In this document: positions 2,731-12,279 of the stretch, piece by piece | Position numbering within the stretch: the first letter of the stretch is position 1 | Layout of the letters: every line of letters begins with the position of its first letter | Origin: a bacterium | GTDB taxonomy: Bacteria > SM23-31 > JAUVVT01 | Assembly: GCA_030616165.1 (NCBI GenBank) | Contig: JAUWXV010000071.1 | Location: forward strand, 1-14,907 | Reading direction: 5' to 3' | DNA length: 14,907 bases | The notes under the pieces: generated by a model | Database searches by the model: none | The model's input: only the letters and a program-made list of their open reading frames with translations | Told to the model about the DNA's origin: nothing | Position numbers and translations under genes: made by a program

Positions 2731-2987
2731 TTTATATGTAATAAGTTAATTGAGCAAATATTTACAAAGAGCTTATTCAATTTTTCCTGACCATATAAAT
2801 GAAGAATCATATCAAAAGTATGTCAGCAAAAAATATACTTTTTAATGATAACCTGTTCTTCTGACAAGGCTGAATCCCGAATTTTGAAAAGATGGCTACG
2901 AGATGAAATTAGTCTATTTTTAAAAAGTCCTTGCGATTTTTATCGGTTTTGTTTATCATTACGGGGAATATTAGAAGATCTGTTAAC

Positions 2988-2992
2988 AGGAG
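2988..2992 (+). promoter_or_regulatory. Shine-Dalgarno AGGAG that fixes the start at 3000
   Basis: AGGAG lies seven bases before the ATG at 3000. The reading frame stays open up to a TTG at 2931, but only the ATG at 3000 has this site, and it places the Lys/Arg-rich start of a lipoprotein signal peptide at residue 1. Confidence 0.75.
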
Positions 2993-2999
2993 TTATAAA

Positions 3000-5900
3000 A
3001 TGAAGAAGCGTTTTATCTTTTTCCTATTGGCAGTATTAACTCTTTTAAACTGTGCACGATTCCGTCCGATAAGAGTACCCGGTCTGCCTGAGAAGGCTGT
3101 TCCCGAGATTGCACAAGAACTTCGAGGGGTCTGGGTTGCAAGATTCAACTGGGCTGATGAAGACCCTGAAGTTATGCGCCTCAGGATTATTGAGATCTTC
3201 GAGCGGATATCCCGCGGTAATTTCAATACTGTATTTTTTCAGGTCCGCGGGCAGGCGGAGACACTTTACCCTTCACCTATCGAACCTTGGTCGAAGCTTA
3301 CCGGTTTTAAAGATCCCGGTTTTGATCCTGTTGCACTTGCCGTAGAGGAGGCTCATAAACACGGTCTGAAATTTCATGCATACATGAACCTCCTTCCAAT
3401 GTGGAATGAAGAAAATCCACCGGAACCCGTAAACCATATCTATCATACCCATGGTCCCCAGTCCGGCGACAAGAATTGCTGGGTCTGCTATGGTCCAGAT
3501 GGGAAACCGATGAAGTTAAATGAGTATTATTATATGAATCCTGCGCTCCCGGAAGTTAAGAGTTATCTTAAGAAAGTATTCCGACACTTTGTGACAACAT
3601 ATGACGTTGACGGGATTCACTTTGACCGGATTCGCTATCCAGGCACAGATTACATCAATGACCCTTATTCCAAAAAAAAATTTAAAGCGGACAGCCTAAA
3701 AACTGCCGTTTCAAGAACGGACTGGGCGCGTCGCAAATTGACCGGCCTTGTGGAGGATGTTGTTACAGAAATCTTAATTGTTAAACCATATCTGCAAATT
3801 TCTGCAGCTACATGGGGGCTCTATAAGACAAAGGATGTTAAAGGATATGAACATTTTAATTCAGGGTATGCAAATTATTATCAGGATGCTATCGATTGGC
3901 TGGACAAAGGTATCATGGATTTTATTGTACCGATGATTTACTGGGATATGCCGGAACCTAAACCGAATTTTCATGAATTATGGGACGATTTCAAAAAGCG
4001 GACAGCGAATCATCATCATATTTTTCCCGGAATGAGGGTGCGTAAAGAATGGATAACAAACGGTGAAACTTTCAGGCAGGTGAAATATTTACGACAGAAC
4101 AGCGGTAGAGGACATGTTATGTGGTCTTATTCTGCCATCACAAATGATATGGAGTTGGAATTAGTTAGAAAATTTATTTATCCCAAAAAAGTAGTTTCAT
4201 CAGTCGATTTGAGACGTATATATTCTAAAAATGTGGTCTCCATTAAGTTCACAAGGGCTGATTCTACGGTTTTATCCGGTGAAGATGTAGAAATAGAGCA
4301 ATATTTTAGGCAGAAAACGGCAGATTCAGAAGGTCGGATCGGCATTATATTGCCGGAAATACCGGAACAATTTGAAATCAACACACTGGATTCAAATATT
4401 CCGATCCCAACCAGGGACTGGAAACAGCCGTTCAAATATACTGTGAAATCTGACGGGTCATATTACAGAGAAAGCCCCTGGGTGGAATTCAGGCGGATGC
4501 CCTCTGCTCTGACAAACCAATCGGGATACGATTTCTTGTGCAAAACATATTATCCTGCAAAAACATACATTAACGGTGACTCTGTAAAAATTTACAGAAC
4601 AGGGATATTTTTTAAAAATATCACCTTCAAAGAAGGAGCTAACCGGGTAAAGGCTGAGATAATAACACCGGATTCTTTAAAAGCAATATATGAGCGGGAA
4701 TTTTATTATGAAAAGGAGGACAGAACCCGCAAATCTTTCCCGTTGTGGATAGATGAGGAATCAATCGAACCCTCTGTAGGCCATGTCCTTCTTGACGATG
4801 ATGTTGTTCGGATAAGTTTTATGGGATCAAAAGGGCAGAATGCATATGCTGAGGTAAAACCGGGTAAAACAAAGATTGCATTATCCAGGGATGATTTTTA
4901 CGATTACAGCCAGTACAGTTGTGATATTTACTTAAAATCCCTGAAGAAACATGATGACCTTAAAATCACAATTTTTCTTGAGCCATCAGGGAAAGAAAAA
5001 GGTATCAAAAAACTTAAACATACCATAAAACCTGTCATCCGTGTACAAAACAGAGCGGATTTTCCTCTTGTCAAAGTGAAAAATGCCGGCTCGATAGTGA
5101 CGTATAATCTTGGGCAGATACGCCTCGGAGGTCCAATTATCGGAGAATATGATCCGGGAGTTATTTTTAAGGTGAACGGCACAATCGGCAACAAATACAG
5201 AGTTTATTTGAATAACGATGAAACAGGTTTCATCAATATTGCTAATGTTGAAATACTGCCTGAAAAAACCTCAAATCCGGGATACTATATCCGGTCTATG
5301 ATGGTGGGTCCCGGCATGAATGAAGATATAGTTTCTATACCATATCGCGAACCTGTGCCATATGCCGTCTTCCCGGAGCCGGACCTGAACAGGATAGTCA
5401 TTTCATTATACGGCGTCAAGACCAGCAGCACCTGGATAACGCACCTGAAAGGTCTGGAGACAATAAAAAAAGTTACCTGGGAACAACCTAAAAGTGAAAC
5501 TTACCGTGTTATCGTTAATTTGAAATCATCGAAAATCTGGGGGTATGAACTAAAACCAGAAGGCAGGTCACTTAAACTGAGAATAAAACATCCCCCGGTT
5601 TTGTTCATGAATAAAGACAGTATCAACATTCGCGGACTTAAAGTAGCAATAGAAGCAGGGCACGGAGGCAGCAGCAGGGGAGCAGTAGGACTTTCCGGAC
5701 TTTTTGAAAAAGAGGTGAATTTAGATGTATCGAAAGAACTGGAAAAAATACTTTTGGATAATGAAGTTGAGGTAATCCAGATACGCGAGACCGATATGGA
5801 TATGTCGATAACTGAAAAACATAATAAAGCAGATAAATCAGGAGCAGACCTGGTTGTAAGCATACATGCAAATGCCGGCGGTGGAGGTTATCTCAGAGTA

Positions 5901-6179
5901 TCCGGGACAAGTACATATTACAATAATCCTTTCTGGGCGGAGTTTGCGGAAAAAGTATATGAAAGGCTGCTTCAGATAGATTTAAAAGAATTTGGAGTAG
6001 TCGGTTCATTTAACTACAGGGTTATACGTCTGTCATCAAAACCGACGATATTAGTTGAACAGGCATTTATGAGCCACGCTGAAGATGAAGAAAAACTGGC
6101 TTCTAAAATATTTAGGAGAAGAATTGCCCGGAAGATTTTTCAGGGTATCGTGGATTATTTAGAATATTTGACTGAATAG
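3000..6179 (+). CDS. Lipoprotein: GHL10 glycosidase-like domain fused to N-acetylmuramoyl-L-alanine amidase
   Basis: This 1059-residue exported protein probably cuts peptidoglycan in two ways. Residues 1-18 form a lipoprotein signal (MKKR, hydrophobic core, lipobox LLNC with Cys18). Residues about 40-390 match GHL10 (DUF187): RGVWVARFNW, FFQVRGQAETLYPSPIEPWS, HGLKFHAYMNLLP, YDVDGIHFDRIRYPG (Asp209 the likely catalytic acid), and DFIVPMIYWDM. A long beta-rich linker follows, then an SH3-like stretch (about 700-756), an AMIN-like stretch (about 762-872) and a zinc amidase (Amidase_3, about 880-1056). The amidase keeps all expected residues: His888 in GHGG, Glu903 in FEKEVNL, His956 in SIHANA and catalytic Glu1020 in LVEQAF. 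Amidases strip peptides from glycan strands; E. coli DigH, a GHL10 protein, is known to cut such denuded strands. The fusion would supply both steps. The linker assignments are by eye. The upstream kinase and symporter could handle released sugars. Confidence 0.88.
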   Translation: MKKRFIFFLLAVLTLLNCARFRPIRVPGLPEKAVPEIAQELRGVWVARFNWADEDPEVMRLRIIEIFERISRGNFNTVFFQVRGQAETLYPSPIEPWSKLTGFKDPGFDPVALAVEEAHKHGLKFHAYMNLLPMWNEENPPEPVNHIYHTHGPQSGDKNCWVCYGPDGKPMKLNEYYYMNPALPEVKSYLKKVFRHFVTTYDVDGIHFDRIRYPGTDYINDPYSKKKFKADSLKTAVSRTDWARRKLTGLVEDVVTEILIVKPYLQISAATWGLYKTKDVKGYEHFNSGYANYYQDAIDWLDKGIMDFIVPMIYWDMPEPKPNFHELWDDFKKRTANHHHIFPGMRVRKEWITNGETFRQVKYLRQNSGRGHVMWSYSAITNDMELELVRKFIYPKKVVSSVDLRRIYSKNVVSIKFTRADSTVLSGEDVEIEQYFRQKTADSEGRIGIILPEIPEQFEINTLDSNIPIPTRDWKQPFKYTVKSDGSYYRESPWVEFRRMPSALTNQSGYDFLCKTYYPAKTYINGDSVKIYRTGIFFKNITFKEGANRVKAEIITPDSLKAIYEREFYYEKEDRTRKSFPLWIDEESIEPSVGHVLLDDDVVRISFMGSKGQNAYAEVKPGKTKIALSRDDFYDYSQYSCDIYLKSLKKHDDLKITIFLEPSGKEKGIKKLKHTIKPVIRVQNRADFPLVKVKNAGSIVTYNLGQIRLGGPIIGEYDPGVIFKVNGTIGNKYRVYLNNDETGFINIANVEILPEKTSNPGYYIRSMMVGPGMNEDIVSIPYREPVPYAVFPEPDLNRIVISLYGVKTSSTWITHLKGLETIKKVTWEQPKSETYRVIVNLKSSKIWGYELKPEGRSLKLRIKHPPVLFMNKDSINIRGLKVAIEAGHGGSSRGAVGLSGLFEKEVNLDVSKELEKILLDNEVEVIQIRETDMDMSITEKHNKADKSGADLVVSIHANAGGGGYLRVSGTSTYYNNPFWAEFAEKVYERLLQIDLKEFGVVGSFNYRVIRLSSKPTILVEQAFMSHAEDEEKLASKIFRRRIARKIFQGIVDYLEYLTE

Positions 6180-6400: not shown

Positions 6401-6577
6401 GTTAACATATTTTTGAAAATTATACAAATATAAAAATTAGGGAACTTTTTTTATTTTCTCATTAAAAAAATGCTTAACTCCAGTCAAATTTTTTTGTAAA
6501 AATTACAAAAAAGAACATATGTTATTTAACATGGCATTAGCTATTAGCGAGGATAAACGGAATTTGGTGGACTACGA

Positions 6578-6658
6578 AGCCCACTTATTATGTGCCTCGG
6601 GTAAGATACCCGAGGCAATCATGGGCTTATTATGCGAGATACACGAGGCGAGCATGGT
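6578..6658. repeat. Nested palindrome (repeat copy 2) with a partial tandem copy
   Basis: An 11-bp perfect inverted repeat, TGCCTCGGGTA and TACCCGAGGCA around AGA, lies at 6593-6617. A second inverted pair, AGCCCA (6578-6583) and TGGGCT (6622-6627), encloses it. The unit 6584-6625 is followed by a diverged copy at 6626-6658 that lacks about 9 bp from the left arm; 6605-6624 and 6638-6657 agree at 17 of 20 positions. The core matches the repeat at 1129-1160. It abuts or interrupts a broken phosphoesterase gene. Confidence 0.75.
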
Positions 6659-7041
6659 TTTCTTCGACGTCTGGTTCTTCCGGGGGAAAATCAAAAACTG
6701 GTCACCGGGCAGTTTATTTACGAAAAAATGTTTGTATCTAAGTATTTAGAATTGCACTAATGCATATGCCCTTATACGGCGGAAATAACTGGCATGGCGA
6801 ACAGGACCTGCGGAAAAAATTTGGACCACTATTTAATAAAGGTCAGATAGATTTGCTGATTTGCGGGCATACGCATAGATTTGCCAGAATTTCTCCACAG
6901 GAGGGAAAAAATGCATATCCCATAGTAATCGGTGGAACAAATAATAGAATTAAAATTGATGTGTCTGAAAATCAGTTCAAGACAACTGTCTCGCTAATTG
7001 ATGGTACTGTTGTGGATGAATTTATTACTGAAAAGAAGTAA
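6638..7041 (+). pseudogene. Remnant of a calcineurin-like metallophosphoesterase
   Basis: The C-terminal part of a metallophosphoesterase is visible in one frame from 6742: FRIALMHMPLYGGNNWHG, then LLICGHTHRF with the family's metal-binding GHTH (His codons at 6868 and 6874), and a beta-rich end up to the stop at 7041. An in-frame TAA at 6739 lies just before it. Upstream, a different frame (6638-6757) gives a protein-like stretch, RGEHGFLRRLVLPGENQK then FIYEKMFVSK, which would join the downstream frame if one base had been lost or two gained near 6743. The RGxH there recalls the family's GNHE motif. The first metal-binding motifs (DxHxD and GDxxD) are absent and there is no Shine-Dalgarno sequence before the ATG at 6760, so an active enzyme is unlikely. 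A 93-codon ORF from 6760 could still be translated. The upstream boundary is uncertain because it runs into the palindromic repeat. Confidence 0.65.
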
Positions 7042-7673: not shown

Positions 7674-9560
7674 ATGAGGAAAAAGATTAAATATCTAATT
7701 TTCATAGTTTTTTTCTTAACAAATTGCGCATTGCAGCAGCAATTGGGCATGGTAGAAGGGGAAAAAGTCAGCCGTAAAACTGAAGAAGGTCTTCATACTG
7801 TTATGTTCGAGACTCCTAATGGGAAGATAAGTGTGAACTTACCCGATGATACTGCAAGAGAAGATGTTATTTCAGGAACTGTTATCGCTGAACCTGCAGG
7901 TAAAACAGAAAAGGAACGTGCAAAAAATCGAGATGTTCTGAATGGTTATGTAGTAGAAATAGACAATCAAAGGACCCCCACAATTAACAAATTGGGGAAA
8001 TGGCTTATACCAGCTGTATCTCTACTCCCTATTATTCTCTGGGACCCAGATGGAAAAGAAGTTGGCGAAATAGAGATTCCTGTCCTTGACGAACCTCCAG
8101 AACCTGTTGATTTTCAAATCCCTACAATAGGACAAGCAGGACATCCAATTGTGATACCAGGAACTTTTGATGGTGATTATGCAAATACAGGAGTTCAAGT
8201 AGGAGACGAAGATGTTTCTTTTTTGGCAGAATCACCGAGACAAGCAATTTTTGAAAGTCCACAAGATATTACAGGTTCTACGGTTATCAGATTAACAGAA
8301 GGAGATTTTGAGGCAGACAGTGAATTTCGAAATATTGATGTTAACCTTGCGGCTCCCAAATTGACACTCACTAAAGGGGAGATGACTGAGTTAACTGTGA
8401 CAGTGGGAGGTCTTGAAGGTTTTGATGGAGAAATACCGCTTCAGATTACTAATGTGACACCGGGCGTTGTTGACATAGAAAGAGGAGGTACTATTATTAT
8501 TAAGCCGGATGATATAGAAGCAGGAGTTTATACACATACATGTCCTCTTACAGGTATTAGCCCAGGCGCTTTTGTTGTTTCTGCTAATGTTCTTACACCA
8601 TACGCATTTCTGGAGCTTATTTCACCAGCAGATGGAGAAGAGATTGATATATCTAACCCTACTTTTCAGTGGACACCTGTTGATATTCCAGATGTAACAT
8701 ATACTTTAACCGCCTGGCAACTACCTGAACAATTAGGAGAAAGAGTAGCAGAAGGATATAGGCTTACCGAAGGAGATTTGGCATATATCGAGCCATATTT
8801 TGTTGATGATGGAATTATAGGAACATCCTTAATTTCTCCGAGAGATTTAGAACCTGGGTTTACTTATGGCGGACAAGTGGAATCCTTTTTAGGAAACAAT
8901 CTCATTTCCTCAAGTATGCTTTTGGGATTTAGTTTAGAGGTTAAGGAAGGTGAGCATATTACGGAAGCTCCATATAATACTAGTTATATCCCGGTAGGCA
9001 ACAGGCATATTTCTAGAGAAGGTCCATATAAAACCTGGTATATTCCAAGAGGTACTATACATATTAGAAAGGGCGCTAACGAGTCGATGTATTATCCAAG
9101 GAGCTGGATACATATTTCCAGAGGTGAGTATGCATCAAAATACAGACCGAACAGGAGATATTATCATGTACCCTCAGGCAAATATGCAACAAGGGATGTA
9201 CCATATGGACATTTACTCGATGGTCCTTATACACAGTATATACCAGGAGGAGGAAGACATATATCCTCGGGTCAATATGATACAAAGTATATACCAAGAG
9301 GTGGACGGCATATATCTCAAGATACAAGGTACGCACCAGAAGGTTCTGTTCATATTAGATCAGGGGAAGATAGGACAAAAACAAGACCAAGCGGTTCTAC
9401 TCATGTCAGGAAAGGTGAAGATAGGTCAAAGTATCAACCAAGAGATAAAAATAGAGAACCTGAGGAACCTAAAGAGCCTGAAAAACCTAAAGAGCCTGAG
9501 AGTCCCAAGGACCCTGAAAAGCCTGAGGAGCCCGAGAAGCCTAAAGAAGAGAAGAAATGA
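7674..9560 (+). CDS. Surface-type lipoprotein with Ig-like domains and a ten-fold His-Ile repeat
   Basis: I do not recognise this 628-residue protein as a whole. It starts with a lipoprotein signal (MRKKIKY, hydrophobic core, LTNC, Cys18). A hydrophobic patch at 110-123 (WLIPAVSLLPIILW) may be a hairpin or membrane contact. Residues about 149-225 look like an IPT-type Ig-like fold, about 228-310 a second beta domain, and about 312-423 a fibronectin-III-like domain (ISPADGEEIDISNPTFQW). Residues 427-594 contain ten units of 14-18 residues, idealised as HISxGxYxTKYIPRGGR, with His at 428, 445, 463, 480, 498, 513, 529, 546, 560 and 577. The last 34 residues are almost only Pro, Glu and Lys, with short variants of EPEKPK. 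The regular His, Tyr and Arg spacing suggests a fibre, a polymer- or metal-binding surface, or a wall-spanning spacer. The next gene overlaps its stop, so the two are probably made together. Confidence 0.85.
   Translation: MRKKIKYLIFIVFFLTNCALQQQLGMVEGEKVSRKTEEGLHTVMFETPNGKISVNLPDDTAREDVISGTVIAEPAGKTEKERAKNRDVLNGYVVEIDNQRTPTINKLGKWLIPAVSLLPIILWDPDGKEVGEIEIPVLDEPPEPVDFQIPTIGQAGHPIVIPGTFDGDYANTGVQVGDEDVSFLAESPRQAIFESPQDITGSTVIRLTEGDFEADSEFRNIDVNLAAPKLTLTKGEMTELTVTVGGLEGFDGEIPLQITNVTPGVVDIERGGTIIIKPDDIEAGVYTHTCPLTGISPGAFVVSANVLTPYAFLELISPADGEEIDISNPTFQWTPVDIPDVTYTLTAWQLPEQLGERVAEGYRLTEGDLAYIEPYFVDDGIIGTSLISPRDLEPGFTYGGQVESFLGNNLISSSMLLGFSLEVKEGEHITEAPYNTSYIPVGNRHISREGPYKTWYIPRGTIHIRKGANESMYYPRSWIHISRGEYASKYRPNRRYYHVPSGKYATRDVPYGHLLDGPYTQYIPGGGRHISSGQYDTKYIPRGGRHISQDTRYAPEGSVHIRSGEDRTKTRPSGSTHVRKGEDRSKYQPRDKNREPEEPKEPEKPKEPESPKDPEKPEEPEKPKEEKK
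8952..9455 (+). repeat. Ten-unit coding tandem repeat, about 51 bp per unit
   Basis: The DNA encoding residues 427-594 repeats with varied unit length (42-54 bp). Recurrent pieces are CATATTTC or CATATATC followed later by TATATTCCA or TATATACCA. Middle units 6 and 7 are closest to each other, and outer units are more degenerate, as expected for a repeat that expands from inside. Unit lengths are all multiples of three, so the frame is kept. Confidence 0.8.
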
Positions 9561-10669
9561 TAAAAGGAGTGTTTAATGTGTGGACAAAAAAGATGGTGTT
9601 GTATTATTTATTGATAATCACTGCTGGCGGTCAAACAGGATGTGCCAATAACTTGAAGATGACAAATGCTTATGAAGATGGTTTTATTGCTAATGAGAAG
9701 TTTATTAATGGGCTTTATAATAATTTGAATTTAGAAGATTCTAAAGAGGTTTTCCGCTTCGTATTTTCCCATCTGGATAATGAAGTAGTTGTATACCCAA
9801 CAGAGAATTACTACTACTTTACCTTTACTGCAAAAGGTAAAACAATTTGGGGGACATTAAATCTTTCTGCTGATAATAGAGATGAAGGTGTATTTGGATT
9901 TGGATACATAGAGAAGATTGATAAGTTTAAGGAGCCAAATTATCCAGTTGTTGGTGGAGGTGGTGATTACAATTCAGAGGATGGTGTTTTTGTTAAAAAG
10001 ATTAATGACTTTAAATATTCTGTTACTTTTGAGGGAAAGACAATCGTTTTTAAGTTTAATGATATTGGCTTATCACCACCCCAAAAAGCCAAGTTACGAG
10101 GTGATGAAATTTTTGTTGGACCATCTTTTGACGAGTCTGGCTTAAAGTTTTTCCTAATTTTTAATAAAACGGAACAACATTTATACTGGGTTCTAAATGA
10201 GGATGGTTTTGTTCCTGAGAGTTTTAAAAAATACACAGATGATATAGTTATTGGTGACAGGACTGGATTTGCTTTTTATCTTGACAAAGAAAACAACAGG
10301 AAAATTCTTTTTGGTGTTGAAGGATTTAATGTCTGGCAAAATAATTGGTATGATGGACCTTTTGATCAATTGCCTGATAATTATGTTTACACTGGCCAAA
10401 TTGAAGTTAAGAAGTATATTGAAGCGAGTTATCCTTACAACAATGGAAGAATCGATAAGTATGGAAATTATCTCGATGAAGAGGGAGCACGTGTAGCGGT
10501 TGCACCTTACCTTGTCTATTTTTCTATAGATGATTTGATTTCTGTTATTGAGTCGTGTAAAGCTTCATCTCCCACTAAGTCTCATTTTTACTCTTGTATT
10601 ACTACACAAATATTCGATTTGCCGGAAGATGTTTATGAAGTGCCCAGGCTGCCACTGGCGCCCCCATAA
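9557..10669 (+). CDS. Unrecognised probable lipoprotein, translationally coupled to the repeat lipoprotein
   Basis: I do not recognise this 370-residue protein. The ATG at 9557 overlaps the upstream stop as ATGA, which suggests translational coupling. A GTG at 9578 is an alternative start and has the better Shine-Dalgarno site (AGGAG at 9565-9569, eight bases away). From the GTG the protein begins with WTKKM, a hydrophobic core and GQTGC, giving a short lipoprotein-like signal with an unusual Gln at position -3. The rest is rich in Tyr, Phe, Asn and Asp and alternates beta-like strands (ENYYYFTFTAKGKTIWG, FKYSVTFEGKTIVFKF), suggesting an exported beta-rich protein. Two Cys near the end (SCKASSPTKSHFYSC) could form a disulfide. 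It ends in LPLAPP. A role with the repeat lipoprotein is inferred from gene order only. Confidence 0.8.
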   Translation: MIKGVFNVWTKKMVLYYLLIITAGGQTGCANNLKMTNAYEDGFIANEKFINGLYNNLNLEDSKEVFRFVFSHLDNEVVVYPTENYYYFTFTAKGKTIWGTLNLSADNRDEGVFGFGYIEKIDKFKEPNYPVVGGGGDYNSEDGVFVKKINDFKYSVTFEGKTIVFKFNDIGLSPPQKAKLRGDEIFVGPSFDESGLKFFLIFNKTEQHLYWVLNEDGFVPESFKKYTDDIVIGDRTGFAFYLDKENNRKILFGVEGFNVWQNNWYDGPFDQLPDNYVYTGQIEVKKYIEASYPYNNGRIDKYGNYLDEEGARVAVAPYLVYFSIDDLISVIESCKASSPTKSHFYSCITTQIFDLPEDVYEVPRLPLAPP

Positions 10670-11439
10670 GAGAAAACGGAATTTTGGAAAATACTGGTTT
10701 TAAATAAAAAAGCCAAGGGCAAATTTGCAAACTTCAAATGAACAGGAGAAAGAAAAAAGTTTTGCTTCTTTGAGTTCCCTAATAAAACAATTTTACTTTG
10801 AGATTTCTCTCCGCTAAAGGCGGATCTGCCTTCGGAGGAGACTACGTCTCCCCCCTCCCCACTCTCAGCGTTGGAAGACTTCGGTCGAAACGACACGGAG
10901 GTGTTGTGCAACACTCACTTTCGCGGGAATGACAATACCTGTATTATAGCCTCAATGTATTAGATTTTTGCTGTTAGCTATTAGAAAACAAAGAGGGCGA
11001 ACAGCCGTTCGCCCCTACATTTGGATAAAAGACATTATTATAGGCTATTTTGTGGGAACACTTTCGATAGCAGAACTTATTATTGAATAATAAGATACGA
11101 AATTCGTGTAACCTTCTTCTTAAAGTACAGTCAGGCATTTTTGAAGAAACTGATTCAAAGGATTGGTAAAATTTTTTTAGACTAAATAATTCATAAAATT
11201 CTTTATTTTAAACAACCAAGTTATTGAACCTAAAACAATACTGAATCAAGTTCAGCACAGGGTTGATGGCTACGGAAACACTATATGATATTCCTTCCTG
11301 CTAAGCGGGATTCGAGAATTTATGTGCACCATTCTATTGCCAAATCCAATATGATAAAAGGTTGATGAACAGATGAAGTTATAAAGAATCAGATAGACAT
11401 ACATCTTCAACTTTTTTTTAAGGATTTGTAAGTTTTCAT
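10670..11439. other. Repeat-rich gap between convergent genes
   Basis: No coding region is supported in these 770 bp. They hold several short palindromes: GGAGAC-TAC-GTCTCC (10837-10851), GTGTTG-TG-CAACAC (10901-10914), the hairpin at 10995-11014, CTGAA-TCAAG-TTCAG (11241-11255) and TCCTGC-TAA-GCGGGA (11296-11310, one G-T pair). The segment 10807-10935 is richer in G+C than its surroundings. The mixture looks like a landing zone for unrelated small repeats, tolerated because both flanking genes end here. Confidence 0.6.
10995..11019 (+). repeat. REP-like hairpin with CCTACA tail
   Basis: GGGCGAAC and GTTCGCCC form an 8-bp perfect stem around AGCC, followed by CCTACA ending at 11019. The hairpin at 6297-6322 ends in the same CCTACA although its stem sequence differs. 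Similar stem-plus-CCCTACA elements are common in many bacterial genomes, from memory. It lies between two convergent genes. Confidence 0.65.
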
Positions 11440-12279
11440 TTACTTCACTGTTTGGTCAAGGGGAATACCCAGCCGCTCATAGAGTCTGCGTCGACCTTTC
11501 TTGTCACCTTCCAGGATATTGCGGGCATAAAGTGCAACATTCTCCGCAACCGCTCGCGGGACTACCACCACTCCATCTCCATCAGCTACTACCACGTCAC
11601 CCGGACAAACAAGTACGCCACCAATCGCCACCGGGCGGTTCACGGACTCAAGGTCGTTACGTCCCGGTCTGATTCCTCTCCCCACATGACGCAGGTAAAG
11701 AGGAACCCTCTCCTTTGCCACTTCATCAGTGTCGCGACTTGAGCCATCGGTAACAATCCCTACAGCCCCCCGTTCATACCACCCCATGATGTTATTGGAG
11801 CCAATGGTTCCGACGTCTGCCTCCTCTACATCATCAATTACTATCACATTTCCCGGCCTGATAATTGAGGTGAAAGCCTCAGAGGAGAAGTTTCCATACC
11901 AATTTCCTTCCCACTTACTGAAATCTTCGTCTGGAGCGGGCCTATCTGGTCGCTGAGTAGGTACGTAGCGAACGGTTAGAGCGATACCACAGAAACAGTG
12001 TATGAGGGAATCCGGGTCTTTCCACGCCGGGTGGATAGAGCGGTCAATCAGGCCGGTTTCCGGCAGTCCTACCATGTCCAATCCATCAGAGACATCTGCA
12101 ACACGAAGACCCTCGTAGAGTTTGAGGATAACCGCATTTTCTTCGTCTGTGTAGGTGCGTGTATCGATGAAATTAACCCCTTTAAGAAGTGCAGCTTCTT
12201 CAGCCGTCTGGGCCATAACCAAAACATTTAGTGCAAAAATTAACACAATTATCCCCACCGGAATAAGACTAAACCTCAT
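11440..12279 (-). CDS. Exported RraA-family (HMG aldolase-like) protein
   Basis: This 279-residue protein has the RraA fold, shared by 4-hydroxy-4-methyl-2-oxoglutarate/oxaloacetate aldolases and by RraA, the RNase E inhibitor. The key region is IGSNNIMGWYERGAVGIVTDGSSRD (159-183, written here without claiming every residue matters): Asp178, Arg182 and Asp183 fit the aldolase substrate- and metal-binding set. VADGDGVVVVPR (231-242) is the usual C-terminal core strand. The oddity is a clear signal peptide at the start (MRFSLIPVGIIVLIFALNVL, then VMAQ), whereas the family is normally cytoplasmic. The start is supported by GGAGGTG at 12284-12290. G+C is about 52% in the stretch 11461-11520, well above the AT-rich genes around it, which suggests horizontal origin. 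An export-linked lyase or aldolase acting on sugar acids is possible; the substrate is unknown. Confidence 0.87.
   Translation of the reverse strand: MRFSLIPVGIIVLIFALNVLVMAQTAEEAALLKGVNFIDTRTYTDEENAVILKLYEGLRVADVSDGLDMVGLPETGLIDRSIHPAWKDPDSLIHCFCGIALTVRYVPTQRPDRPAPDEDFSKWEGNWYGNFSSEAFTSIIRPGNVIVIDDVEEADVGTIGSNNIMGWYERGAVGIVTDGSSRDTDEVAKERVPLYLRHVGRGIRPGRNDLESVNRPVAIGGVLVCPGDVVVADGDGVVVVPRAVAENVALYARNILEGDKKGRRRLYERLGIPLDQTVK

Follow-up and report, generated by a model that had tools for sequence, protein, structure and literature searches.

The gene at positions 7674 to 9560 of the window, by which we mean the whole 14,907-nucleotide stretch of contig JAUWXV010000071.1 analysed here (a bacterium of GTDB lineage SM23-31), encodes a 628-residue protein that, judged from its sequence, is best explained as an exported envelope protein built from a conserved head and an interchangeable C-terminal part. 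In this protein the C-terminal part includes ten His-Tyr-Pro units and a tail rich in Pro, Glu and Lys. We tentatively favour, at a probability of about 0.38, a reading in which the repeat would serve as a flexible multivalent basic arm that sticks, at the cell surface, to an acidic polymer. The features are as follows.

7674 to 9560, + strand: whole ORF, exported protein with the His repeat, 628 aa; strong Shine-Dalgarno sequence, aaggaggtgaattacaATG, 5' of the ATG
7674 to 7742, + strand: signal peptide, residues 1-23, with a candidate atypical lipobox LTN-C (Cys18); read directly
7746 to 8600, + strand: conserved head of three beta domains (residues ~25-309); from relatives, alignment and model
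within 7746 to 8600, + strand: head subdomains at residues about 30-145, 146-223 (TIG-like) and 222-309 (Ig-like); from the model and fold matches
8166 to 8239, + strand: family signature FDGxxxN...AESPR; from the head-family alignment
8601 to 8951, + strand: residues 310-426, probably one more Ig-like or FN3-like domain; from the pattern SPADG..NPTFQWTPV..YTL
8955 to 9452, + strand: ten His-Tyr-Pro repeat units, residues 428-593; from unit reading and column conservation
9456 to 9557, + strand: Pro/Glu/Lys tail, residues 595-628; from composition
9557 to 10669, + strand: downstream gene, probable lipoprotein (GQTGC), without a family; 4-base overlap (ATGA) with the stop of the repeat gene

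Export signal, repeat units and tail

Residues 2-23 form a helix in the AF2 model, and the lipobox pattern [LVI][ASTVI][GAS]C was compared with the candidate LTN-C, in which Asn at position -1 is atypical. Head-family relatives with a readable N terminus carry a hydrophobic (Sec-like) leader, in most cases without a lipobox. The lipid anchor claimed in a preliminary description of this DNA is therefore uncertain, and lipidation of the protein, as read from sequence, is possible.

The ten units conform to the consensus H-[IVL]-x-x-G-x-Y-x-[TS]-x-Y-x-P-x-G, with the opening His at residues 428, 445, 463, 480, 498, 513, 529, 546, 560 and 577 and with unit lengths, in order, of 17, 18, 17, 18, 15, 16, 17, 14, 17 and 17 residues. 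His, Pro, Thr/Ser and the Ile/Val/Leu that follows His are kept in all ten units, and the remaining columns are less strict (Gly at position 5 in 8/9, the second Tyr in 8/10, the late Gly in 7/10 and the first Tyr in 6/10). Self-identity of the protein at a lag of 17 amounted to 37 residues, a value that none of 5000 same-residue shuffles reached at any lag from 5 to 59. These results confirmed the ten-fold repeat of about 17 residues proposed earlier, whose coordinates were right to within one residue, the first His being residue 428 (nucleotide 8955) rather than 427. The 34-residue tail described behind it was likewise found, at residues 595-628, and holds 13 Glu, 10 Pro and 9 Lys.

At the DNA level, Tandem Repeats Finder called no array over the His repeat; the 18-nt tandem repeat that it located lies under the Pro/Glu/Lys tail. 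Gapless DNA repeats within the His array are 60-86% alike, and 111 of 278 identical-residue pairs between units use different codons. Since the regularity is stronger in the protein than in the DNA, the array looks old and diverged and would be held by amino-acid constraint rather than produced by fresh slippage. That His, Thr/Ser and Pro are fixed in 10/10 units despite this divergence speaks for selection acting on these residues' side chains.

The earlier statement that no named repeat has this form was borne out, as profile and sequence searches of Pfam, NCBIfam, PHROGs and PDB sequences returned no acceptable match. The Rad4 BHD_3 model of Pfam was rejected for the repeat region (18.8 bits versus a cut-off of 27, over 19 residues only). 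Also dropped was kinship with 'H-x4-S-x2-W-P' repeats of the WPPNH type, which the His units seemed to us to resemble: pattern scans gave scattered chance sites only, the plasmid matches are annotated as pentapeptide-repeat and hypothetical proteins, and the literature searched made no mention of it.

Searches for relatives of the repeat were equally negative. It is single-copy within its own genome, the full protein was not found in the other five genomes examined of its phylum, and no convincing match to the repeat was obtained in 386 genomes across the domain, the phylum included, or in 45 further genomes reached through head-family loci or matches. The weak matches from the 386-genome search that were read (L004, L005, L006, L010 and others) proved Ig-like or due to chance rather than relatives, and a weak repeat match in the Mariniphaga genome (L240, E 0.006) was rejected because its ORF looks DUF1080-type by eye. 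Automatic searches for relatives with the full-length protein came back empty for genome contigs, viral contigs, phages and plasmids; matches to the repeat in phage and plasmid records were all due to chance, and viral contigs searched with a hand-made probe alignment (the query plus invented variants) gave none. On present sequences, the His repeat appears to lack a name and to be confined, so far, to a single genome.

The downstream gene at 9557-10669 is a possible operon partner. Near the head relatives no homologue of it was seen, the loci compared giving short chance matches only. Scans found no RNA families or tRNA, and no clear terminator was seen 3' of the repeat gene. Elsewhere in the window, positions 2931-6179 encode a 1082-aa protein with a GHL10 glycoside-hydrolase-like domain and a C-terminal Amidase_3 peptidoglycan amidase, and positions 6519-7041 hold two short ORFs of 76 and 93 aa; since the match of the second is confined to the C-terminal end of a calcineurin-like phosphoesterase (PF00149), the pair resembles a gene that is broken or frameshifted.

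The head domains and the head family

Over residues 30-300, the AlphaFold model of the head, built with 36 alignment rows, has pLDDT values of about 92-98. The middle domain (residues 145-223 of the model) matched TIG-type domains of CGTases and a Bacteroides protein with Z about 6, and the third matched Ig-like domains of bacterial alpha-2-macroglobulins with Z about 8, middling values that would indicate a common fold only. The Pfam TIG model (PF01833) scored below its gathering threshold on the window protein itself (E 0.41, 11.1 bits versus 20.9), but it was found in 7 of 36 head-family members (E up to 0.01, best 8e-8); five members matched NCBIfam Soli_cterm. Residues 310-426 showed neither a Pfam match nor a confident fold in the model, and the stretch around residues 305-350 gave weak matches to large proteins. 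The beginning of the region is shared with the relative L224; the sequence pattern listed above suggests that this region is probably another Ig-like or FN3-like domain.

The top Foldseek match was the surface glycan-binding protein SGBP-B of Bacteroides ovatus (PDB 6e57), which is likewise exported and consists of a string of TIG/Ig-like domains. SGBP-B differs, however, in that identity is 12-13% and the TM-score 0.14, and no SusC/SusD-type genes were seen in the ORFs of the window.

Because automatic relative searches failed, relatives of the head were sought with the motif FDGxxxN...AESPR, whose choice was guided in part by a presumed likeness to other sequences. Scanning 84,980 species genomes yielded 45 stretches (L131-L175), and in 43 of them the encoded protein is related to residues ~25-309 (phmmer E 2e-21 to 1e-74). 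These proteins, with the fuller signature FDGxxxNT...LAESPR, share with the window protein a leader and the three-domain head at 25-48% identity over about 280 residues. The signature is invariant in the alignment, partly by construction since the relatives were drawn by it, which does not apply to the similarity elsewhere. The head profile, which itself includes the row of the window, matched the window protein with E 1.1e-97. Literature searches with the motif gave no paper on it.

Bacterial members of the family come from Acidobacteriota, Aminicenantes, Bacteroidota (mostly Chitinophagales), Armatimonadota, Verrucomicrobiota, Eremiobacterota, Melainabacteria and Pseudomonadota MAGs. As the profile matched 9 of 247 Acidobacteriota genomes (seed included) and one of six in the window's own phylum, namely its own genome, the spread of the head is patchy. 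The tree placed the window's copy without support, the nearest rows being Acidobacteriota and Aminicenantes. By sequence, the head defines a widespread, unnamed family that spans several bacterial phyla and has no dedicated Pfam model; the preliminary description did not notice this kinship of the front 280 residues.

Two loci stood out in their distribution. A Methanoregulaceae archaeon MAG (L169) carries the head, weakly grouped with Armatimonadota in the tree, which may reflect either binning contamination or transfer. In an Obscuribacterales MAG (L235) the head profile gave twenty matches, some of which are pieces of one ORF, a pattern that we read as a lineage-specific expansion.

While the head is kept, the part behind it differs from member to member. 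Long, coiled-coil-like C-terminal parts are present in L162, L168 and L174, the proteins L173 and L142 have no more than a few residues after the head, and others carry further unnamed parts. The nearest longer relative, a Mariniphaga protein (L224), is 41% identical over residues 8-357 and has a different end. Neither the 17-residue His repeat nor the Pro/Glu/Lys tail was seen in any head relative read, and the few genes scanned beside seven relatives showed no shared theme. One further protein (L236, positions 8028-11690) combines the head with TPR repeats and a C-terminal caspase-like CHAT domain (E 5e-69), an unusual pairing.

Readings of the repeat and tail

The repeat contains 29 Lys/Arg versus 14 Asp/Glu, together with 10 His and 18 Tyr, giving a net charge of +15 (plus 10 His), a pI of 10.0 and a FoldIndex of -0.25, which scores as unfolded. 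AlphaFold, run on the repeat alone and on the full protein, assigned a pLDDT of 24-41 to most of it; since no homologous rows cover the repeat, this is weak evidence and does not refute a fold. The beta-solenoid-like rod suggested in the preliminary description accordingly found no support in the prediction or in the FoldIndex, within that limit.

These data, taken with the signal sequence, the strong ribosome-binding site, the head with its TIG/Ig-like matches (SGBP-B among them) and the variable C termini of the family, led us to the flexible-arm reading. The head and the Ig-like domain behind it would form a stalk at the cell surface, from which evenly spaced His-Ile and Tyr-x-Pro stickers on the flexible basic arm would bind an acidic polymer, for which a surface polysaccharide or exopolysaccharide, a wall polymer or DNA are candidates. 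Firm attachment would arise from the sum of many weak contacts, and the Pro/Glu/Lys tail may hold the protein end extended and soluble. Against this reading, the regular spacing of Gly and Pro would also suit a beta-hairpin ladder, and the basic repeat might just as well turn back onto acidic parts of its own protein, the head (net -27) or the Ig-like domain (net -16).

The latter charges, opposite to the +15 of the repeat, could instead reflect an internal clamp or assembly arm that docks on the head or on the product of the downstream gene, whose overlap by 4 bases fits such a partner. We consider this the least probable of the readings, as it has neither structural nor co-occurrence support: no homologue of the downstream gene was seen near relatives, and the head elsewhere carries quite different C termini or none.

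The low predicted order also suits an inert duplicated spacer, in which repeat and tail would hold the head off the surface or cross the wall and their residues would bind nothing, and relatives such as L173 and L142 manage without such a part. There would, however, be little reason for a pure spacer to retain His and Tyr, and His, Pro and Thr/Ser persist in every unit although the DNA has diverged; we therefore regard it as doubtful, albeit worth serious weight beside the flexible arm. In composition, the tail resembles the Pro/Glu/Lys regions of Gram-positive surface proteins such as the group B Streptococcus protein BAC. Unlike those proteins, the window protein has no sortase signal after the tail, and NF038253, which residues 588-625 match weakly (E 0.074, 10.8 bits versus a cut-off of 1700), is hit far below threshold and through composition.

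A beta-hairpin ladder or solenoid rod would have two short strands per unit (HIS and YxTKYI), turns at x-G and P-x-G, and His or Tyr aligned on the stack for metal or sugar. The constant positions of Gly and Pro, the alternation of beta-branched with aromatic residues and the 10/10 His are consistent with it. The units vary in length from 14 to 18, however, and Tyr is missing at alignment position 8 in 4/10, features rare in stacked solenoids; the repeat is moreover very basic with few hydrophobic residues, and the weak AlphaFold test produced no fold. This arrangement is in our judgement unlikely. The hairpin repeats of choline-binding proteins (CW_binding, PF01473) resemble it in principle, being short tandem units, located behind other domains, in which Gly and aromatic residues recur at intervals. 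Choline-binding repeats serve in wall attachment and comprise about 20 residues with Trp/Tyr, without a fixed His or Pro, and Pfam scans of the window protein gave no PF01473 match.

A bolder proposal, which we hold distinctly unlikely, is that the units constitute a new class of surface repeat, ordered by themselves or upon ligand binding, whose regularly spaced His, Tyr and Arg would bind metal or polymer and which would be one of many interchangeable payloads on a widespread, unnamed export head.

Irrespective of the role of this one repeat, the wider gain is a head whose C termini change fully, from coiled coils and TPR-CHAT to short tails and the His repeat. As read from the sequences, the mix of payloads behind the head points to a display or delivery platform.
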